DNA from: Deltaproteobacteria bacterium
GTDB lineage: Bacteria; UBA10199; DSSB01; JACPFA01
Assembly (NCBI GenBank): GCA_016183235.1
Contig: JACPFA010000031.1
Location: 1-59,078, forward strand
Reading direction: 5' to 3'
DNA length: 59,078 nucleotides
This document shows, piece after piece, positions 29,684 through 59,078 of this stretch; positions within the stretch are counted from its first letter, which is position 1; each line of letters starts with the position of its first letter. The notes below the pieces were generated by a model, which did not search any database, was not told the origin of the DNA, and saw nothing but the letters and a program-made list of their open reading frames with translations. The position numbers and the translations under genes were made by a program.

Positions 29684-31585
29684 ATGAAACCCACTTATAA
29701 GACAATTTTGCTATGGGGCATTATCATCTTGTGTTCCATTTCAATTTTACAACTCATTAGTTTCCCACCCAATAGCGAACAAAGCATTTCTTACAGTGAG
29801 TTTGTAAAAGATATCAAAGAAAATCGCATTGAAAACGTGGTAGTGAAAGGCAATGTCTACACGGGTAAATATAAGCCTAGCAATTCTGGTAAAAAGTTTT
29901 TTAAAGCGATTGGCCCCTCTAATAGCGATAAGATTAATGAGCTGTTGGCCAATTCGCAGGCCCGCGTCGAATTTTTAGAACATCGCGACTCCTCGATGCT
30001 GTATCAGTTTTTGATCTATTGGCTGCCCATGATTGTTTTGGTGGGGCTTATCATTTTTATCATGCGGCAATTACAGGCCGGGGGCGGCAAGGCCATGAGT
30101 TTTGGCAAAAGTAAGGCCCGCCTCATGACTGACAAATCTCGCCGGGTTACTTTTGCCGATGTAGCGGGGGTTGATGAAGCCAAAGAAGAACTACAAGAAA
30201 TTATCGAGTTTTTAAAAAATCCTAAAAAGTTTACCAAGCTGGGGGGAAGGCTTGCCAAAGGGGTTTTGCTGATGGGCCCTCCCGGGACGGGCAAAACTTT
30301 ATTGGCACGGGCCATTGCTGGCGAAGCCGGGGCACCGTTTTTCTCGATTAGTGGTTCTGACTTTGTAGAAATGTTTGTAGGGGTGGGGGCCAGCCGAGTG
30401 CGTGATCTTTTTGAACAAGGCAAAAAACACGCCCCTTGTATTGTGTTTATTGACGAAATCGATGCGGTGGGTCGCCATCGTGGGGCAGGGCTAGGCGGCG
30501 GCCATGACGAGAGGGAACAAACCCTTAATCAATTACTCGTTGAAATGGATGGCTTTGAAAGTAACGAGGGGGTTATTTTGGTCGCGGCTACAAACCGCCC
30601 CGATGTTTTAGACCCCGCCTTATTGCGCCCGGGCCGCTTTGATCGGCGGGTCGTAGTGGCCAAACCCGACCTACGAGGTCGCGAATTAATTTTGCGGATT
30701 CATATGCGCAAAGTACCGATGGCAGGTGATGTTAATCTTTCGATTATTGCCCGTGGTACTCCCGGGTTTAGTGGTGCCGATTTACAGAACTTAGTTAATG
30801 AAGCAGCTCTCGTCGCGGCCCGCACTGAAAAGAAAGCTGTCGAAATGGTAGATTTAGAATTTGCCAAAGATAAAGTATTGATGGGCTCCGAGCGGCGCAG
30901 CATGTTGATTAGCGAAGAAGAGAAAAAAAATACAGCCTATCATGAAGCCGGCCACACCTTGGTGGCCAAACTTATTTTGGGGACTGACCCCATCCACAAG
31001 GTTACGATTATTCCCCGAGGAATGGCATTGGGGTTAACCCAGCAGCTACCGGAAGAAGACAAGCATTCTTATTCTAAAGAATACACTGAAAATCGCATCG
31101 CTATTTTAATGGGTGGGCGGATTGCTGAAGAACTTATTTTTGCTGCTCAAACCACCGGCGCTGGTAATGACTTTCAGCATGCCACCGACCTGGCGCGTAA
31201 GATGGTTTGTGAATGGGGGATGAGCGAAAAATTGGGCCCGATTCATTATGCTAATCGTGATGAAGAAATCTTTTTAGGTCGCGAATTAGCTAAAAACCCC
31301 AACTATAGCCCCTCAACCAGTGACCTTATCGATGAAGAAATTAAAGCACTTATCTTACGCAATTATGAGCGGGCTAAAAAATTATTGAGCGAACATATTG
31401 ACCAACTGCATCGTTTGGCCAAGGCCTTGCTTGAAATGGAGACTTTGTCGGGGGATCAAATTGATTTGATTATGAGTGGGGGGACGCCGGCGGTGGTGAC
31501 GCCTAGCGCTGAAGTCGCCGAAGTTAAAACTCGCAAACGGTCAAAGCCAAAGCCCATCATTTCACCCCAACCTACCAAGGCTTGA
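29684..31585 (+). CDS. ftsH: ATP-dependent zinc metalloprotease FtsH
   Basis: Membrane-bound AAA+ protease for quality control and turnover of regulators such as RpoH. Two helices (about 8-26 and 108-127) flank the small periplasmic domain. Walker A GPPGTGKT (198-205), Walker [12 protein letters not shown], second region of homology [11 protein letters not shown], and zinc site HEAGH (420-424). 633 residues, full length. Nucleotide start shows GGAAGGACCTGCT before the ATG. Heads a tilS-ftsH-folP-glmM-pdxJ-nnr-tsaE order common in bacteria. Confidence 0.97.
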
Positions 31586-50468: not shown

Positions 50469-52115
50469 CTATTTCCCCCTACCCTCGCCACCGGGAAGGC
50501 GATCGGTGTGTTCGAGAAGGCCGCGGCTTTCGGCTAGGCTACGCAGGCTATCGAGGGTGGTGCTGGGAACACTGTGCTCACGCAGCAGCGTATCCATTCT
50601 ATTAAAAAGTTCGGGGCTGGCGAAGGGATTTTCGCCAATGTGGGCGTAGACGGCTGGCCAAAGGCGCTCTGGGATACCTGCCTCTGTAAGGGCAGCAACG
50701 ACTTGAGGGGGGAATGCGGCTTGGTCTGCTCGCAAAGGGGGCATGGCTCCTGGGACGAGCGTTGAAGCTGGCGCAGCACGGGCGATTGCGGGCTGGCCGG
50801 GGTCGAAGCCCCGCTCTGGGGCAGTCATTGGAAGGGGATCTTCACCAAACTCATCCATCATAGGATGTGGCGCTCTTGAGTCTACTGGGGGGCCTTGCAA
50901 TTCTTGTTGCAAATATTGCAAGGCGCTTAAGCCTTCTTCGGTTGCAAAGAATGCGATAAGGTCATCGTCTTGGGCCATCGCACTTAACGTTGCTTGCCAA
51001 ACTTTATCAACATTTTCAGCCCGGGTTAAATTTGGGTAGGGCAAGCCCACTTTATATTCCCAGATATCGTCTATTATATCAAATAACTCCACAAATTGGG
51101 GCAAGGCTTCTGTAGGTAAACGACGCAGCACTCCCCAATACAAAGCAGGTGGGTTGGCCGAGTATCTTTGATAATAAGCGCTGAAGCTCAATTTGCTCAA
51201 AGCCTCTAATAAAAATATAGCTCGAGCAACTTCGACTTCATGATCTGTGGCTGCATAAATCCCGTGGGTGCTGGCGATTTTGGCTAAAGCTTCTAAGGCA
51301 AGAATGTGGTCGGGATGAGCGAACAACATTTGGAAAACTTGGAGAGGCACTTGGCCATCTTCAAGTGCTAAGAGGGGCTGGCCAGCTAAATAGCCATCAC
51401 CTTGAGTTATAACAATATTCAATCGGAGGGAAAGACTAAGTAACCAAGCTCGCATTGGATTAGAAAGTTCATAACCCTCTTTTAAAATATCATCGATAGC
51501 ATCTTTGATCTGGCCATAAGATTCAACAGCGGCTGGGTGGTTAAGGGCTTGGTAAGCATTCTCGATTCTTTCGGTGGAGTTGGCTCTTAACACATCTAGA
51601 GGGATGGGAGATAAACCGGTTATCAAACCCACTTCAACAGCCAATGGCTGCATACCTAGTAAGGTCGCTAAGCCTTGGTAAAGGGGCTCCAACACACCAT
51701 TGATTCTACCACTGGTGGGCAAGTAAATTTGGCCCGTAAAGGCAAGGCTTGCCCCTGAAGCCATGGGGGCTAAGGCATAACCCGTAAAAGAGGGATCGGC
51801 CTGGTTAGAAAATAGTACTAATTGATAACCCTCTCGCCATGGGTTACCCCCCAAACGCGCAGTTACTTGGCGGGCTAAGGCTTGGTCTTGGAAAACTAGG
51901 GCACGAATGGGTGGGGCATCGCCGACTTTAAGGTACTGAGGTCGGAAGGGATAAAGGTTTTCTTGCCCCCCTACTTCGGCAAAACTACTTTGGCCTGGGA
52001 CTGCCCAGGCTAATTGAGAGACTTGAGCAAAGGGCTCGGTGCGAATGGCACCGTTAGAATCGACATAAAATTCGGGGTGATTAAAATCGGGGGAAATGGT
52101 TACTGAGGGTGGCAT
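50469..52115 (-). CDS. Unrecognised 548-residue protein
   Basis: No family recognised. No signal peptide or membrane helix. N-terminal 170 residues are mixed alpha/beta with an open, Gly/Pro-rich style (VTISPDFNHPEFYVDSNGAI); 170-380 are helical (AVEVGLITGLSPIPLDVLRA; LALEALAKIASTHGIYAATD); a Pro-rich linker (about 425-470) leads to a helical end (PERLWPAVYAHIGENPFASP). AAGGAG about 5 bases before the ATG. Divergent from the 2084-residue gene, so a common role is possible. A second copy of its 3' end is at 49818. Confidence 0.65.
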   Translation of the reverse strand: MPPSVTISPDFNHPEFYVDSNGAIRTEPFAQVSQLAWAVPGQSSFAEVGGQENLYPFRPQYLKVGDAPPIRALVFQDQALARQVTARLGGNPWREGYQLVLFSNQADPSFTGYALAPMASGASLAFTGQIYLPTSGRINGVLEPLYQGLATLLGMQPLAVEVGLITGLSPIPLDVLRANSTERIENAYQALNHPAAVESYGQIKDAIDDILKEGYELSNPMRAWLLSLSLRLNIVITQGDGYLAGQPLLALEDGQVPLQVFQMLFAHPDHILALEALAKIASTHGIYAATDHEVEVARAIFLLEALSKLSFSAYYQRYSANPPALYWGVLRRLPTEALPQFVELFDIIDDIWEYKVGLPYPNLTRAENVDKVWQATLSAMAQDDDLIAFFATEEGLSALQYLQQELQGPPVDSRAPHPMMDEFGEDPLPMTAPERGFDPGQPAIARAAPASTLVPGAMPPLRADQAAFPPQVVAALTEAGIPERLWPAVYAHIGENPFASPELFNRMDTLLREHSVPSTTLDSLRSLAESRGLLEHTDRLPGGEGRGK

Positions 52116-52131: not shown

Positions 52132-52577
52132 TGTCATTGCGAGCCTCCTTCGCAAAGCCTCAGGACAGGCGCTGGGCGTGGCAATCCGACCGAAGGTCGT
52201 CCTGAGGCTTTAGCCGAAGGATCTCTTGCAAACGAGGAGATCCCTCGCAAGGTCTCGGGACGATGCTCTGCATCGGATTGCGGAGTTTATCCTGAGGCTT
52301 GCCGAAGGAGCCGGCTGGCCTCGCAATGACAGAAAACCATCGATATTGTGTGTATTTAGTTGCTAAATTTTATTAATATACGAGTAGAATTGATTATTAA
52401 ATGGAATAAGATGGAAGATTGCTTCGCTATGCTCGCAATGACATTTTCTTAAAAATCTCACAACAATTGGTGGGGGTTGTCGAAAGAAACACTTAGATTA
52501 AGCGCGGCAGGGGTAATTAAACGACAAAATAAACGGAAGATTGCCACGCTCGCCCACGGGGCTCGCTCGCAATGACA
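52132..52577. repeat. Family A repeats between the two divergent genes
   Basis: A long A palindrome (52132-52330) with the same CCTGAGGCTTTAGCCGAAGG / GGATCTC nested hairpin as at 31595; short A units at 52413-52443 and 52534-52577. No gene is seen in 52116-52584, and any promoters for the divergent genes must lie between repeats. Confidence 0.85.
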
Positions 52578-52584
52578 GCTATAA

Positions 52585-55500
52585 ATGGTAGAACCACCGA
52601 ACAATTTAGGCAATGATGGTGCTGCAGGGGTTGGAGTTGTTGGCCCCGTATCGGCGCCCGAAAATACTCAACCTTACGTGCGCTTTCCGGTCGCACAAAA
52701 AACGTTGTATACCCTTGTGGCATTAGGACTATTTAAACCTGGTGAAGGGGTGCAGCTTTATCCTGCAACCGAAAGTGGCGAAGGGCTTTATTATTATGGA
52801 TTTCCTGAATCTCAAGCACGATTACAGGCGGTCATTGCCCGGCTGCAAGAATTAAAAAAACCTGAATTTTACCATGTAGGTTCACTTCCCTCGGCAGAAC
52901 CCGAAGTCGAACTCGATTATACACCATCAACCCCAGAAAAAAAACCTGAACCGCCCAAGGTTCATTTTATTCAATTGGCTGCAGGCACTCCGCCTATCAT
53001 CATCGGCCCTAAATTTTTTGACAATAGCCTCGCCTATCTACAAGAACACCTCAAAGATTTATCCGTAGCGGAATGTGCGCCGCTCGCTAATGATCGCTTT
53101 GCTTACAAGCCTTTTTACATGCAGGCCAGCGCCCTTGGGCAAGCTGAAGTTCAGAATCCACCTCCTCTTAAGGCTAGAAGTTTTTGGGGTTACAATTTTC
53201 CCGTGGGGGCTATTCCTTTGCGCCACGACTCTGCCCAAGAACATTTGCAATTGGAATTAACTCAAAACCCTGAATTGACCCTCTGCCGCCGTGCGCTCAC
53301 GGTAACCCTCGATGATTTTAAAAACCTCAATGGGTTTTTGCAACCCCCAGCGGGCCAACTCTATTGGGGGGCCTATGGTTATTTTGAACAGATCGATCGC
53401 TTGCACAGCAAGTGCGAAACTGTCTTTCAGAAATTTGAAAAGCTTGAACTTAGTTTGCCACGGGAGACAGCTGAACATTTGGTAACTATCGGATTACTAA
53501 CCCCAGGCGATCAGATCTGTAATCATGGGCCCGACAATATTCGGGCAGGTAACAATATTTATTTGATTCGAAAAAACATTCTACCCGTGGCTCATAAACA
53601 GAAAATTTTAGAAAACTTAAAGCTTTGGATTGAGGATGGGCAGTTTCAGGATAATCAAGGCAAGCTTGTACCTGCACCCAAGCTTGACCTCCCTCCCGAG
53701 CTATTGCAGAGCATTAGAGATAAACTAGAAGATGAACTTTTAGACCCCGACGAGGCCAAGAGCCTGATGGATGAAATCAGTAAATGGATCAAAAACAACC
53801 CTTTGTCGATGGCAGGGATCTCGCTGTTGGTGATCATTATTGGGTTTTACGGCTTTCCTTGGGGATGGGAGGCCATTCGCCATCGCTTTGACCTGGATGC
53901 CCATCGACAGTTGGTGTCAGACTTGACCACTTGGAACGGCCGGGATGCTATGAACTTGGCAGATAGGGCGCGGGATGATTTAACCAAGCCGTTAGGAAAA
54001 GATCGCCCGATATTACCGGCTGTGGAGTGGCAAAATCAAACCTTGGTGCTTAAGGGTAGTGATGCCGTGCTCGACGAAACTCGCACGGCCGAAATGAGTG
54101 TAGAACAAGGGCCCTTGCGGGGGCTGGCTAGCGTGACCAAACCTGAAGGGGGTAAAGTTGTAGGCGAAATCGATGCTACACGAAGCGGCGTGGCTAAGCT
54201 GCGTGCACCGCGAGAACGGGAACGCAAGGTCACGGTGCGGCCTTTACAAGTGCGCACCATCGCCTGGGACCTAGGCGACGGCCGACGTATACAATTGGCG
54301 CTTTACACGGGGGAACAATTTCCGTCGCAGGTGTACTTGATTGATCCGAGCGGACAAGCTCGGGCATTACAGTATGATGGTGTCATTGCGAGCAATGTCA
54401 TCCCCGCGAAGGCGGGGACCCATGATAAAGCGTGGCAATCTCGATCGGGGCAGTCGTCACTTGCTCAATATTCCGACGGGCGTGGGCTTCGAATTTTAAT
54501 TAGCCCATCGGTGCTAGGTGGGGCCCCTACCCTTTACATCCCACCAGCCTCAGAGACCCTTGCGGTGACCAAACCCAAAGAACAAAGTTTTAAAGTAAAA
54601 ACCGAAGCCGGTGGCCGTTATGAAATTCGCTTTAGCCGTGGCCCCAATGAGCATCCCACCGAATTTGAATTGTTCACCCGCACCCAAGCGCCCCAGACCT
54701 TTCGCTTAGTGGGTTTTTTGCATGGCGCCCAAGAAAGGCATTTTTGGGGGAATGTGGGCATTTATGAAAACCCGGCCGAACCCCATTCGCCACCCTTGTA
54801 TTTAGCCTTTTCAAGACATGGCACCTTTGGCTTGCGCCGCGGAGCGCGCGTTTTGTTAACCGCCGATACGAAAACTTTTGATCGCGGGCGACGGTTTTTT
54901 TGGGGCCAAGCCAAGGCGCCTGATGACATGCAAGTGGGCATGGAAAATATGGTGGCATGGGAAGAAACTCGCAAGGACGGCCTGCGAGCCGCCATTGCTG
55001 CAGAACGAGACAAGCGTGAAGCTAGCCGCGATGCGCTTAGGGAAAGGGCGGCTTCTGTCATGGTGAACTCCGGGCCCCCTGTCATTGCGAGCCCAACGGG
55101 CGAAGCAATCTCACCGGTTAAACCGAGGGGATTGCCACGCCCTGGTGGGCTCGCAATGACAGAGGATGTTGGGCTCGCAATGACAGAAGCCAGTGTAGCC
55201 GACTTAGAAGCAAGACTGGCGGCGGAACAGCGGGCCACTGAAGAATTTCAAAACCAATTACGTGATCGGGTGGTAACGACACTCGAACCCATTGCCGCAA
55301 GCCTGAACACCGATGTCAACCGTTTGCGGTTGAGCCTCGAGATTGCCAATGTGCACGAAGTGACCACTCACTTGCTTTTTAGAGCCTATGCCGACCGCTT
55401 TGGGGTGGCCGAAGGGCAATCATCGGTGGTACCTGAATTAGATCAGGTGAGGCTGAGTGGAGATTTTACCGAAGACATGCTGCGAGAAATCTTGGTCGAA

Positions 55501-58500
55501 CGACGGGCATTTTTTGAAGGGTTGATGGGGATGGATTCTCCCCTCCTCGAACGTTGTTTGGCTCAAATGCGCATTGCAGGGCTACAAGGCCAAGCCGTCA
55601 ATCCTCATCAATTATTTGCCCTCGACCCAAACCCCGTCGTACGCGAAGGAGCCCCCACTTCAGGCCCGCTGGTGGTTGACGCACAAACCCGCTTTGTTGA
55701 AAGATGGGTACCCGCACATGCAAGCGCCTTGGGTACGGTTTATCGCAATCTTGCACAGCAAGAGTTAGAGCAAGCTCGTGACAGATTAACAGAAGCTGAA
55801 CGACAATTAGCTGAAGCTGTAACCAAACAGGACGAACTGGATCAAACTCACAAGCAAGCACGTGCAGCCTGGGTTCGAGCCAGGAGTGCATTGGGCCATT
55901 TAGGACAAAGAAAGAAACGTGCCGGAGCAGACACAACAGAACTACCCCCTGCAGCCGTTCCCTCAGGAGGTCTAGGATTAAATGACGAAAGGGCTCGACT
56001 GCTTGGGGTCTTTGGCGCCAAACCACAAGCCGATTATCAAAAGGCTCATACAGCCTACACCCAAGCTCGCCTGGCCTATCGAGAACAAGGGCTAGTTGTA
56101 AGACAAGCCCGAACGGCACAAAAAGAGGCTGCTCTACAATTGGAAGCCGCTGAAAGAAAAGCGGCTGCCGTTCAAGCCACTGAGGCCAAGGCCGTTGCAA
56201 AATCTGCTCGTGAAATACAACTAGAGCAACTGCGCACCTTAGAGGCTACTCGCATTACTCTAGAAACCAGCACCCATGCGGCCGCTGGAAGCAGTGAACC
56301 GATTCGCCCTGAACTGTTGGTCGATGCCAGCGAACGATTGGCAACAACTGAAAGTACCGCCGATGCCGAAGAAAGACGATTTTTAGAAGGCCTCCCCTTA
56401 GGCGATGGCTTGGTGGCCTTGAGTGTGCGCAGCAAACCCGTTAATCCCAAGTATCGAGAACGTTTAGACCCAGTCAAATATCCTATGCTCACCCGCTTTG
56501 GCTACGACATGACTTATGCGGCAGCGGCAGGTGAGCTGAATGTAATCATTGGCCGTCAAGCCGAACTGGATAAAATGGATGAAGAATTGATCGACCCCGA
56601 AAAAGGCAACGTGGCACCCACCGGTGGGCAAGGGGTTGGAAAAACGGGCGTGGTAGAAGGCAAGGCAATTCAATTGGTGCACAACGATGTGCCGATACAA
56701 TTGCGCGGCAAACGCCTTATACGCCTTGATATTGCTGCCATGGTGGCAGGCACCAAATACCGTGGAGAATTTGAAGAACGTTTGAAAGGGGCTATTAAAG
56801 AAGTTTTGGCTAGTGAAGGTGAAGTGGTCATCTTTATCGATGAATTGCACGTGATCGTAAAAGCGGGTGCAGCCGAGGGTGCAAGCGGTGCGGGCGATAT
56901 CCTCAAAGAAGCCTTGGCACGCAGGGGTTTCCAAATGGTCGGCGCCACCACCGATGAAGAATGGGAGCGCATCATTGAAGGCACCGGTTGGCTTAGCCCC
57001 GGCGACAAGGCCTTGGGCAGGCGTTTCTTGCGAATACCTGTAAAAGAACCTAGCTTCCGTGAATCACTTGCCATGCTGCTGGGCCGCCGGCGATTTTTAG
57101 AACAACATTATAATGTTGCTATTTCGGCCGAGGCCTTAGAGGCCGCTATTTTGGGAAGCTCGGCTTATATTAAAGATCGCTTCTTGCCCGACAAGGCCTT
57201 TGACTTAGTCAAAGAAGCCAGTGCCGCAGCGGCCATTGGGGCTGACCTTAGGCCGCAAGCCATTCGAGATATCGAAGCCCGTTTTGAGATTGCCGATGCC
57301 AGCGAGCGGTCTGCCTTAGAGGCCCAACACCGAAAATTAATGGCGGAGTGGCAGCGCATGCAAAGCTTGGTGCAAAAAATTCGCTCAAGTTATGAGGCGT
57401 TGAAGCAGGCTGAAGCGGCTATGTATGATGCATTAGGCAAAGGCGATCATGCAGAAGCTGGGCAACGCGGCACGGCGGTATTGAAGGCTCGAGAAAATTT
57501 ACGAACGTTACAAACAAGACTTGCTGCTATGGAAAAGACCACAGACGTGCGTTGGCCCACGGGTCGAGTGGAGGCGGCTGACGTGATTGCGGTGCTAGCA
57601 AAAAAGACGGGCAAACCGGTAAGTGAAATTGCTGATCGGATTGACTTTGAACGTGCGCCCGAATGTTCTCCGGAACGTCTGCGGGTAGAGGTGGCGCGGG
57701 TGATTAAGGAGCGAGAGAGAATTGAAGCCGAGTTGGCTAAACCTCTGTCATTGCGAGCCCAGCAGGGCGAAGCAATCCCAAGTAACCCAAGCGAGATTGC
57801 TTCGCGGACGCTCGCAATGACAGAGGGGCGCCATGACACCCTTGAGCTTGCTCAGGGTGAAACTTGGGAAAGCCGATTAGAGGCTGAACAAGAAAAATTA
57901 AAACTCGCCCAACAGCGCTTGGAATGGGAACCAAAAATTAAAAAATCTCGGATTGTGCACGCGCAATGGCAACATGGCTACTATCAATCTATGCGTCACC
58001 CCAGCGACCGAGTCCCTTGGGATAAGGCATTCGAATTGGCGATTTGGGCCGAGGCCGTTGATACGAGTGGCCTAAGTTATGAAGAATACCAACGCGGTTT
58101 CGAACAAGCCTTGGCCGCCGATCGTCAACAGGCCGAGGGTAATCGCATAGAACTCAATAAACAAATTCGAGAAGCCATGGGGGGCTTGCAACGGGCCGGC
58201 ACCACTCCCCTGCCCCCGCATCAAATGACCGATCATTTGATTGTGCCTCCCCAAGGCATGAACCTTCAACAATATCGCGATGCCCTACTTGCACAACTCC
58301 AGGGGCACACCCAAAAAGTTTCGGCACTCCCCATTCGGGCGCCACTCAATGCTGCAAACTTGTTGGCCACCTTGCGGGGCTTAGCCACCGCTGGCAATGG
58401 CGAAGCGGTTTTTTGGAGCCATGTTGAGGCCATGTTGCGCGACAAACCTTTTACCACCGTAGAAGAACTTTTTACCGTGCTCCGCAACCAAGTTGGGGAA

Positions 58501-58839
58501 CACATGGATCCGGCTTGGTTGCGGAGAGTGATCGCTGCAGTGCCAGCAGATAGCACGCCCGAAGAATTGGCCTTGGCGGGCATACGGGGGGCCATTATCA
58601 TAATGCGATCAGCGGATGCCTTGCCTGATACCCAAACGTTCTTAAGCGAGCGCCGTAGCGCGGCAACTGCACCTGCGGAAGCGGCTGCGGGCAATGGTGG
58701 CAAAGGGGGGCGCACACGCAGGGTTCGCGGGGCCAGAGAGGCAACCACGGCTGCGGGTGCTGGGGCGGAGAGAATTGAAGGGGAAACACCGGGAGAGAAG
58801 GGAAAGGCCGGCGGACCTAAGATTAAGAAACTAAAATAA
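52585..58839 (+). CDS. Giant protein: membrane helix, coiled coils and one ClpB-D1-like AAA+ module
   Basis: 2084 residues. The first 400 contain two related segments (about 30-90 and 295-360: ALGLFKPGEGVQLYP; TIGLLTPGDQICNHG). One membrane helix at about 405-427. A beta-rich part follows, then coiled coil about 1054-1215. AAA+ module about 1300-1555 matches ClpB/ClpA D1: FGYDMTYAAAAGELNVIIGR, Walker A GGQGVGKT (1347-1354), Walker B FIDELH (Asp1419, Glu1420), GATTDEE at 1453, arginines 1479-1480. A ClpB-like middle coil and the VLAKKTGKPVSEI linker follow, but no D2. Basic low-complexity tail. Three dispersed repeats are translated in frame. ATG 52585; ribosome site poor. Function unknown. 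Confidence 0.75.
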   Translation: MVEPPNNLGNDGAAGVGVVGPVSAPENTQPYVRFPVAQKTLYTLVALGLFKPGEGVQLYPATESGEGLYYYGFPESQARLQAVIARLQELKKPEFYHVGSLPSAEPEVELDYTPSTPEKKPEPPKVHFIQLAAGTPPIIIGPKFFDNSLAYLQEHLKDLSVAECAPLANDRFAYKPFYMQASALGQAEVQNPPPLKARSFWGYNFPVGAIPLRHDSAQEHLQLELTQNPELTLCRRALTVTLDDFKNLNGFLQPPAGQLYWGAYGYFEQIDRLHSKCETVFQKFEKLELSLPRETAEHLVTIGLLTPGDQICNHGPDNIRAGNNIYLIRKNILPVAHKQKILENLKLWIEDGQFQDNQGKLVPAPKLDLPPELLQSIRDKLEDELLDPDEAKSLMDEISKWIKNNPLSMAGISLLVIIIGFYGFPWGWEAIRHRFDLDAHRQLVSDLTTWNGRDAMNLADRARDDLTKPLGKDRPILPAVEWQNQTLVLKGSDAVLDETRTAEMSVEQGPLRGLASVTKPEGGKVVGEIDATRSGVAKLRAPRERERKVTVRPLQVRTIAWDLGDGRRIQLALYTGEQFPSQVYLIDPSGQARALQYDGVIASNVIPAKAGTHDKAWQSRSGQSSLAQYSDGRGLRILISPSVLGGAPTLYIPPASETLAVTKPKEQSFKVKTEAGGRYEIRFSRGPNEHPTEFELFTRTQAPQTFRLVGFLHGAQERHFWGNVGIYENPAEPHSPPLYLAFSRHGTFGLRRGARVLLTADTKTFDRGRRFFWGQAKAPDDMQVGMENMVAWEETRKDGLRAAIAAERDKREASRDALRERAASVMVNSGPPVIASPTGEAISPVKPRGLPRPGGLAMTEDVGLAMTEASVADLEARLAAEQRATEEFQNQLRDRVVTTLEPIAASLNTDVNRLRLSLEIANVHEVTTHLLFRAYADRFGVAEGQSSVVPELDQVRLSGDFTEDMLREILVERRAFFEGLMGMDSPLLERCLAQMRIAGLQGQAVNPHQLFALDPNPVVREGAPTSGPLVVDAQTRFVERWVPAHASALGTVYRNLAQQELEQARDRLTEAERQLAEAVTKQDELDQTHKQARAAWVRARSALGHLGQRKKRAGADTTELPPAAVPSGGLGLNDERARLLGVFGAKPQADYQKAHTAYTQARLAYREQGLVVRQARTAQKEAALQLEAAERKAAAVQATEAKAVAKSAREIQLEQLRTLEATRITLETSTHAAAGSSEPIRPELLVDASERLATTESTADAEERRFLEGLPLGDGLVALSVRSKPVNPKYRERLDPVKYPMLTRFGYDMTYAAAAGELNVIIGRQAELDKMDEELIDPEKGNVAPTGGQGVGKTGVVEGKAIQLVHNDVPIQLRGKRLIRLDIAAMVAGTKYRGEFEERLKGAIKEVLASEGEVVIFIDELHVIVKAGAAEGASGAGDILKEALARRGFQMVGATTDEEWERIIEGTGWLSPGDKALGRRFLRIPVKEPSFRESLAMLLGRRRFLEQHYNVAISAEALEAAILGSSAYIKDRFLPDKAFDLVKEASAAAAIGADLRPQAIRDIEARFEIADASERSALEAQHRKLMAEWQRMQSLVQKIRSSYEALKQAEAAMYDALGKGDHAEAGQRGTAVLKARENLRTLQTRLAAMEKTTDVRWPTGRVEAADVIAVLAKKTGKPVSEIADRIDFERAPECSPERLRVEVARVIKERERIEAELAKPLSLRAQQGEAIPSNPSEIASRTLAMTEGRHDTLELAQGETWESRLEAEQEKLKLAQQRLEWEPKIKKSRIVHAQWQHGYYQSMRHPSDRVPWDKAFELAIWAEAVDTSGLSYEEYQRGFEQALAADRQQAEGNRIELNKQIREAMGGLQRAGTTPLPPHQMTDHLIVPPQGMNLQQYRDALLAQLQGHTQKVSALPIRAPLNAANLLATLRGLATAGNGEAVFWSHVEAMLRDKPFTTVEELFTVLRNQVGEHMDPAWLRRVIAAVPADSTPEELALAGIRGAIIIMRSADALPDTQTFLSERRSAATAPAEAAAGNGGKGGRTRRVRGAREATTAAGAGAERIEGETPGEKGKAGGPKIKKLK
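54381..54442. repeat. Family A repeat with nested C, in frame in the giant gene
   Basis: GTCATTGCGAGCAATGTCAT, then CCCCGCGAAGGCGGGGACCC, then GCGTGGCAATCTC. It adds VIASNVIPAKAGTHDKAWQS at about residues 600-620. Confidence 0.92.
55081..55185. repeat. Family A palindrome, in frame in the giant gene
   Basis: GTCATTGCGAGCCCAACGGG to GGGCTCGCAATGACAGA, with the last 18 bases partly duplicated (GTTGGGCTCGCAATGACAGA). Encodes VIASPTGEAISPVKPRGLP and then two copies of GLAMTE, about residues 833-868. Confidence 0.93.
57747..57822. repeat. Family A palindrome, in frame in the giant gene
   Basis: TGTCATTGCGAGCCCAGCAG to GGACGCTCGCAATGACAGAG; encodes SLRAQQGEAIPSNPSEIASR followed by TLAMTEG at about residues 1720-1748, in the coil after the AAA+ module. 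It is read in another frame than the repeat at 55081. Confidence 0.93.
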
Positions 58840-58974: not shown

Positions 58975-59078
58975 ATGGGACAAGTCACCATTTACCTTGA
59001 CGAAAACACTGAACAGGCAATGAGAACCGCGGCTCAATCTGCTAAGGTTTCCCAAAGCAAATGGATTGCTCAGCTTAT
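58975..59078 (+). CDS. Ribbon-helix-helix protein, antitoxin-like, cut by the window edge
   Basis: 34 codons: starts MGQVTIYLDENTEQAMRTAA and continues with KVSQSKWIAQL, a CopG-type strand plus two helices. TTAGGAG is 5 bases before the ATG. A toxin gene is expected beyond the edge. It would repress the promoter at 58924. Confidence 0.8.
   Translation, partial: MGQVTIYLDENTEQAMRTAAQSAKVSQSKWIAQL

Follow-up and report, generated by a model that had tools for sequence, protein, structure and literature searches.

The giant gene at the end of the window

The stretch of DNA analyzed here, hereafter the window, is the 59,078-nucleotide contig JACPFA010000031.1 of Deltaproteobacteria bacterium (assembly GCA_016183235.1; GTDB lineage Bacteria; UBA10199; DSSB01; JACPFA01). 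Close to its end lies a gene for a giant, membrane-anchored protein of 2084 residues that carries a ClpB-type D1 AAA+ domain. The open reading frame (ORF) runs from 52585 to 58839 on the plus strand as a single intact frame of 2084 codons, and the position and length given for it in a preliminary description of this DNA are exact. When the frame is divided into 14 blocks of 150 codons, its codon use is closer to that of the window's genes than is the case for the alternative frames tested in 13 of them. The contig ends at position 59078, 239 bases past the stop codon, and hence the protein is complete; the absence of a second AAA+ domain (D2), discussed below, is therefore not the result of truncation by the assembly.

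The D1 domain and the missing D2

The D1 AAA+ domain occupies residues 1299-1589 (56479-57351, plus strand) with its motifs intact, as indicated by Pfam, by NCBIfam and by sequence and fold matches in the PDB to the D1 of ClpB and ClpC. In Pfam, the only matches in the whole protein are AAA (residues 1347-1432) and AAA_lid_9 (residues 1492-1589). Positions 152-549 of the NCBIfam ClpB profile, corresponding to D1, the middle coil (M-coil) and the D1-D2 linker, align with residues 1298-1683 (1.8e-76), and a D1 profile, built like its D2 counterpart from the Clp proteins of the genomes searched, matches residues 1297-1671 (2.5e-84). The claim of a complete D1 core, made earlier from Walker A, Walker B and the arginine fingers, is borne out by Walker A GGQGVGKT (1347-1354), Walker B FIDELH (1417-1422) and the double-arginine finger GRRF (1478-1481), to which GATT (1453-1456) and the pore loop KYRGEFEER (1391-1399), with its KYRG element, can be added. 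The replacement of GEPGVGKT by GGQGVGKT, singled out in the preliminary description, is there; it is minor and fits the Walker A pattern GxxGxGK[TS].

AlphaFold modeling of residues 1285-2084, for which a 31-row alignment of Clp D1 segments was used, gave a predicted local distance difference test score (pLDDT) of about 90 over residues 1304-1684, that is, D1 and the M-coil. The best Foldseek match of the modeled D1 in the PDB is nucleotide-binding domain 1 (NBD1) of ClpB (4hse, E 3e-24); ClpC and Hsp104 rank next. In the position of the ClpB M-domain, the model holds a putative M-domain-like pair of helices (1572-1618 and 1622-1652; together 57298-57540, plus strand; pLDDT mostly about 90). 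A ClpB-like D1-D2 linker (VEAADVIAVLAKKTGKPVSEI, residues 1662-1682; 57568-57630, plus strand) follows, identified from the NCBIfam match and the sequence. Thus, both the middle coil and the linker that had been proposed are present, the coil in a form shorter than that of ClpB.

No D2 comes after the linker. The D2 profile has no match anywhere in the C-terminal tail (residues 1748-2084; 57826-58836, plus strand), while it scores the ClpB encoded by the same genome at 5.8e-165. The tail is modeled as all-helical (pLDDT about 30-80), with no strand and no alpha/beta fold, and has no homologue in the phylum search. The prediction that D2 is missing was accordingly upheld in the profile search, and structure prediction, which might have uncovered a second AAA+ domain, gave none in residues 1285-2084.

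The N-terminal part and the membrane helix

Hydropathy reveals one segment that stands out in the protein, a hydrophobic helix at residues 406-427 (PLSMAGISLLVIIIGFYGFPWG; 53800-53865, plus strand) with a mean Kyte-Doolittle value of 1.96 over 19 residues. The helix, called from hydropathy alone, lies before D1, in keeping with the membrane anchor that had been noted there. Its flanks carry three basic residues per 20 on each side, and charge does not decide its orientation. Upstream is the N-terminal domain (residues 1-405; 52585-53799, plus strand), which is predicted to be exported and for which sequence comparison established no homologue. Modeling was uninformative here: AlphaFold of residues 1-880 without an alignment gave a mean pLDDT of 36.8 and is not interpretable. 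On visual inspection this domain seemed to contain a repeated ectodomain module, but the idea was rejected, since shuffled sequences outscore it in the profile test. Beyond the phylum (385 genomes in all), the ectodomain gave weak matches only, almost all of them to the beginning of ordinary Clp proteins.

Between the helix and D1, a putative beta-rich segment covers residues about 470-780 (53992-54924, plus strand; weak secondary-structure signal, pLDDT under 50), and a coiled-coil-like segment read from the sequence covers residues about 1055-1220 (55747-56244, plus strand). The long coiled coil described earlier is real, but it is peculiar to the window protein among the lone-D1 proteins introduced below.

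In its own genome and the phylum, the sole full-length match to the window protein is the window protein itself. Neither its N-terminal nor its C-terminal part has an orthologue in the 45 other genomes of the phylum. Plasmids, viral contigs and GTDB contigs held none at the sensitivity of those scans, and phage records match the protein at D1 only.

Related lone-D1 proteins in the phylum

The preliminary description saw one odd protein. The larger point is that its layout, in which a hydrophobic helix precedes a single ClpB-D1-like AAA domain and no D2 follows, recurs: among the 46 genomes of the phylum that were searched, 18 further proteins of this kind are found in 15 other genomes (G013, G016, G019, G020, G023, G025, G028, G030, G033, G034, G035, G038 with two, G041 with three, G042 and G044). 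The set was assembled from two genomes with long D1-bearing frames found in the first search and then extended with profiles; four members (G023, G035, G041b and G038b) are truncated at a contig end or by a stop or survive as remnants, and in G041a four residues of the P-loop are unread. The full-length related proteins range from 780 to 3418 residues, and the D2 profile matches none of the 18. Their helix precedes Walker A by 51 to about 128 residues. In the window protein, where the beta-rich segment and the coiled coil intervene, the separation grows to 922 residues. Of all these proteins, that of the window comes closest to ClpB by D1 profile score. Related proteins scanned with Pfam show generic AAA models and the Clp-type lid only. 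The window protein corresponds to no described family in Pfam or NCBIfam, and no description of such proteins was found in the open-access literature. One of them lies on the public contig JACQMB010000019.1 (Deltaproteobacteria bacterium NC_groundwater_1218). The related proteins change fast and are described in no database consulted, and the window protein looks like a membrane-bound remodeling motor or scaffold of a new kind.

Cysteines are unevenly distributed in the group. Over the 17 members whose N-domain is complete, 0.99% of the residues preceding the helix are cysteines and 0.21% of those following it (4.6-fold), and the bias holds in 15 of the 17 taken singly (Wilcoxon 5e-5; Fisher 4e-13, which ignores kinship). 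The window protein has six cysteines, four before the helix (residues 164, 234, 277 and 312) and two after. Since cysteines concentrate N-terminal to the helix, and the outside is oxidizing and the inside reducing, an N-out/C-in topology is inferred, chiefly from this bias; in such an arrangement the N-domain would be exported and bear disulfides and the AAA domain would be cytoplasmic.

The catalytic residues fall into two classes. Both the Walker A Thr/Ser and the Walker B Asp are kept in 8 of 17 scored proteins, including that of the window, while seven have lost both, one the Walker B Asp only and one the Walker A Thr/Ser only. The two losses thus coincide (Fisher 0.003, not corrected for kinship). 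Because about half of the scored members have lost Walker residues, hydrolysis is probably dispensable in several lineages. The degenerate sequences favor a scaffold role for those relatives, and the pore-loop tyrosine and catalytic residues would favor a working motor in the window protein.

Several members have features of their own. The largest, of 3418 residues (locus L131, 1009-11265), has eleven cysteines and, beyond the AAA domain, further hydrophobic helices. A remnant (L096, 286-1662) joins a start of the type seen in a neighboring protein (as L032 7093) to the helix, a partial AAA domain and the tail of an AAA protein, and apparently arose by duplication followed by deletion. A C-terminal domain with a motif like NPYTPxHLxxxxPxFE is common to the AAA proteins of four genomes (L101, L102, L103 and L104).

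Companion genes and a shared N-terminal motif

In five genomes (G013, G023, G033, G038 and G041), the AAA gene adjoins a companion gene for a cysteine-containing protein of 287-356 residues, mostly with a hydrophobic helix (L032 5977-7011; L095 10935-11963; L097 2020-2967; L099 239-1309; L108 1882-2745). Elsewhere in the phylum, the companion profile found nothing beyond neighbors of AAA genes, except one marginal match in G028. As the companion occurs only beside the AAA gene, the two proteins are suggested to act as a functional pair in those five lineages. Moreover, the N-terminal motif M-x-x-[AG]-G-[EQDK] occurs in 7 of 192 ORFs in the member loci, all of them AAA or neighboring proteins, compared with 4 of 554 ORFs in control loci. 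The shared motif, in the form M-x-[SG]-[AG]-G-[EKD] (L032 2647 and 5977; L095 7895 and 10935; L097 2020; L098 5299; L102 4701), is possibly a targeting signal in place of a signal peptide.

Origin of the D1 and relation to known systems

In a tree of D1 sequences, the 18 ClpB proteins of the phylum form one clade (87/95), and the window protein falls outside it. A recent duplication of the genome's own ClpB is not supported on this basis, and the window D1 is, as far as its placement tells, an old and separate lineage. In BLAST comparisons it matches members from G035, G041 and G016 with E values of 4e-15 to 3e-7, and ClpB better. A single origin of all 17 lone-D1 rows is not rejected by the approximately unbiased (AU) test (p = 0.136) in a tree that is rich in long branches. 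The window protein and the others may be one family, or may have been derived in parallel from ClpB-like ancestors.

The closest likeness is to D1 (NBD1) of ClpB/Hsp104: the domain is 43% identical to that of the genome's own ClpB and shares its motifs, lid, M-coil and linker. Unlike ClpB, however, the window protein lacks the Clp N-domain (as defined by Pfam) and D2, and has a membrane helix and about 1290 residues before D1. ClpC/MecB gives the best PDB sequence matches of the window D1 (6em8), and here the differences are the absence of D2, of the ClpP-binding loop and of the N-domain, and again the membrane helix. The NCBIfam equivalog cut-offs are not reached for ClpB (258 versus 1232 bits) or for ClpV/TssH (240 versus 885 bits, with no D2). 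Human CLPB/SKD3 retains a D2-type ring. It resembles the window protein in having a single AAA ring derived from a ClpB-type protein with the N-terminal part replaced (PMC9934407), and differs in its ankyrin repeats and as a mirror image, D1 rather than D2 having been lost. FtsH is comparable in manner of working only, with a non-cytoplasmic domain, a membrane helix and a single cytoplasmic AAA ring (PMC7949044); it belongs to another AAA subfamily and has two helices and an M41 protease domain, for which the window protein gives no Pfam match. A true FtsH is encoded in the window at 29684-31585. By these tests the window protein is outside ClpB, ClpV and FtsH.

Repeats inside the gene and the neighboring gene

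The gene contains two full and one partial in-frame copy of a palindromic repeat with the ends TGTCATTGCGAG and CTCGCAATGACA. The partial copy of this interspersed element (VIASNVIPAKAGTH) is at 54381-54425, a copy with one end duplicated (TGTCATTGCGAG...CTCGCAATGACA) at 55080-55185 and a copy with both ends present at 57746-57825, all on the plus strand. Scoring of the genome placed the full form at about 40 further positions; within the window, the copies outside this gene are intergenic or sit at the ends of genes. In the protein, the insertions (residues about 600, 831-868 and 1722-1747) are between predicted segments and mark permissive linkers. Four further repeat ends are located in the intergenic region 52132-52577 just upstream of the giant gene, and other genomes of the phylum also contain these ends (L103, L100 and L098). 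Beyond this region, a divergently transcribed gene (50469-52115, minus strand) encodes an orphan protein of 548 residues with no family match and no relative in the 59 genomes searched.

Possible functions

Our preferred, if tentative, reading is that the window protein is a membrane-tethered single-ring remodeling ATPase that couples an ectodomain to cytoplasmic threading. In this model, a ClpB/ClpC-like ancestor would have lost D2 and had its N-domain replaced, giving a bitopic inner-membrane AAA+ protein with residues 1-405 outside the membrane (N-out), one crossing helix and the remainder, including D1, in the cytoplasm. D1 retains the M-coil and every residue required to bind and hydrolyze ATP and to grip with the pore loop. 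Ring stability, to which D2 contributes in ClpB, may come from the membrane anchor and the coiled coil, and the ring, controlled by the ectodomain, would thread or remodel a partner in the cytoplasm or close to the membrane. FtsH provides a precedent, where a membrane-adjacent AAA ring with a periplasmic domain can act on membrane-proximal substrates (PMC7949044). The earlier suggestion of an envelope-linked remodeling or scaffold ATPase of a new type gains from the 18 relatives and the cysteine bias, while topology, ring assembly, threading and an envelope role for the window protein are what we infer.

Several observations count against this model. The protein lacks a signal peptide, without which the export of an N-terminal tail of 405 residues is unusual. 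Its N-domain shows no firm homology to those of its relatives: in hhalign, none of 150 shuffled sequences was as good with a subfamily profile and 11 of 150 were with a broad profile, and the module profile was negative. The companion profile finds no recognizable companion gene in the window genome, and with no orthologue, selection on the protein is not measurable. A ring of D1 only may be weak, because ClpB has its main motor in the D2 ring, with D1, ringed by M-domains, in a regulatory role (PMC6593972). Moreover, the loss of Walker residues in about half of the related proteins means that hydrolysis is not essential to the group.

This loss leads to the suggestion that D1 is mainly a membrane-bound oligomerization platform, a scaffold or nucleotide switch in which ATP binding serves assembly and threading is irrelevant. 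The coinciding losses of the Walker A Thr/Ser and the Walker B Asp (8 of 17 members each) argue for such a role, with which the long coiled coil and the large additional domains are also consistent; yet the window protein keeps every catalytic and pore-loop residue, which a pure scaffold would not need, and we regard this alternative as unlikely here. The three in-frame insertions of a mobile repeat, in a window where other copies lie between genes or at gene ends, together with N- and C-terminal parts that lack orthologues, could instead indicate a fusion relic, that is, a drifting gene with little function of its own, in which a piece of ClpB without D2 has become fused to unrelated sequence. 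However, a drifting relic would lose the D1 motifs, all of which are kept on a long branch, and the 2084 codons are free of stops with the coding-like codon bias described above; the relic is improbable.

Doubt can also be directed at the membrane itself. If the hydrophobic segment were a buried or hairpin helix, the protein would be a peripheral cytoplasmic one, a soluble ClpB-like chaperone, and the missing signal peptide and the lack of charge asymmetry at the helix would be accounted for. The hydropathy of the segment, the helices of other members at a similar distance before their AAA domain and the cysteine bias make this quite improbable. A ClpV-like motor of a contractile or secretion apparatus, built of neighboring large proteins, was considered because the neighbors in other genomes are large, fast-evolving and helix-bearing. 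ClpV, however, contains two AAA domains and lacks a membrane helix, ten neighbors scanned with Pfam contain no secretion or sheath domain, and no secretion or sheath genes lie near the window protein; such a motor seems very improbable.

Taken at its broadest, the membrane-tethered model would extend to an undescribed envelope machine across the phylum: a ClpB-derived single ring on an ectodomain that bears cysteines, accompanied in some lineages by a dedicated partner gene, with an AAA domain repeatedly turned into a pseudo-ATPase, and the window protein as a giant, catalytically intact form. This extension is conceivable, if doubtful. As a variant of HSP100 proteins, the window protein is of interest because its layout recurs across the phylum. 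In HSP100 proteins D1 and D2 are normally paired, and a natural membrane-tethered protein with D1 only, its motifs intact, offers a direct test of what D1 can do alone. Likewise, the active-looking and inactive-looking versions within one phylum constitute a natural series on the question of when such a ring needs hydrolysis.

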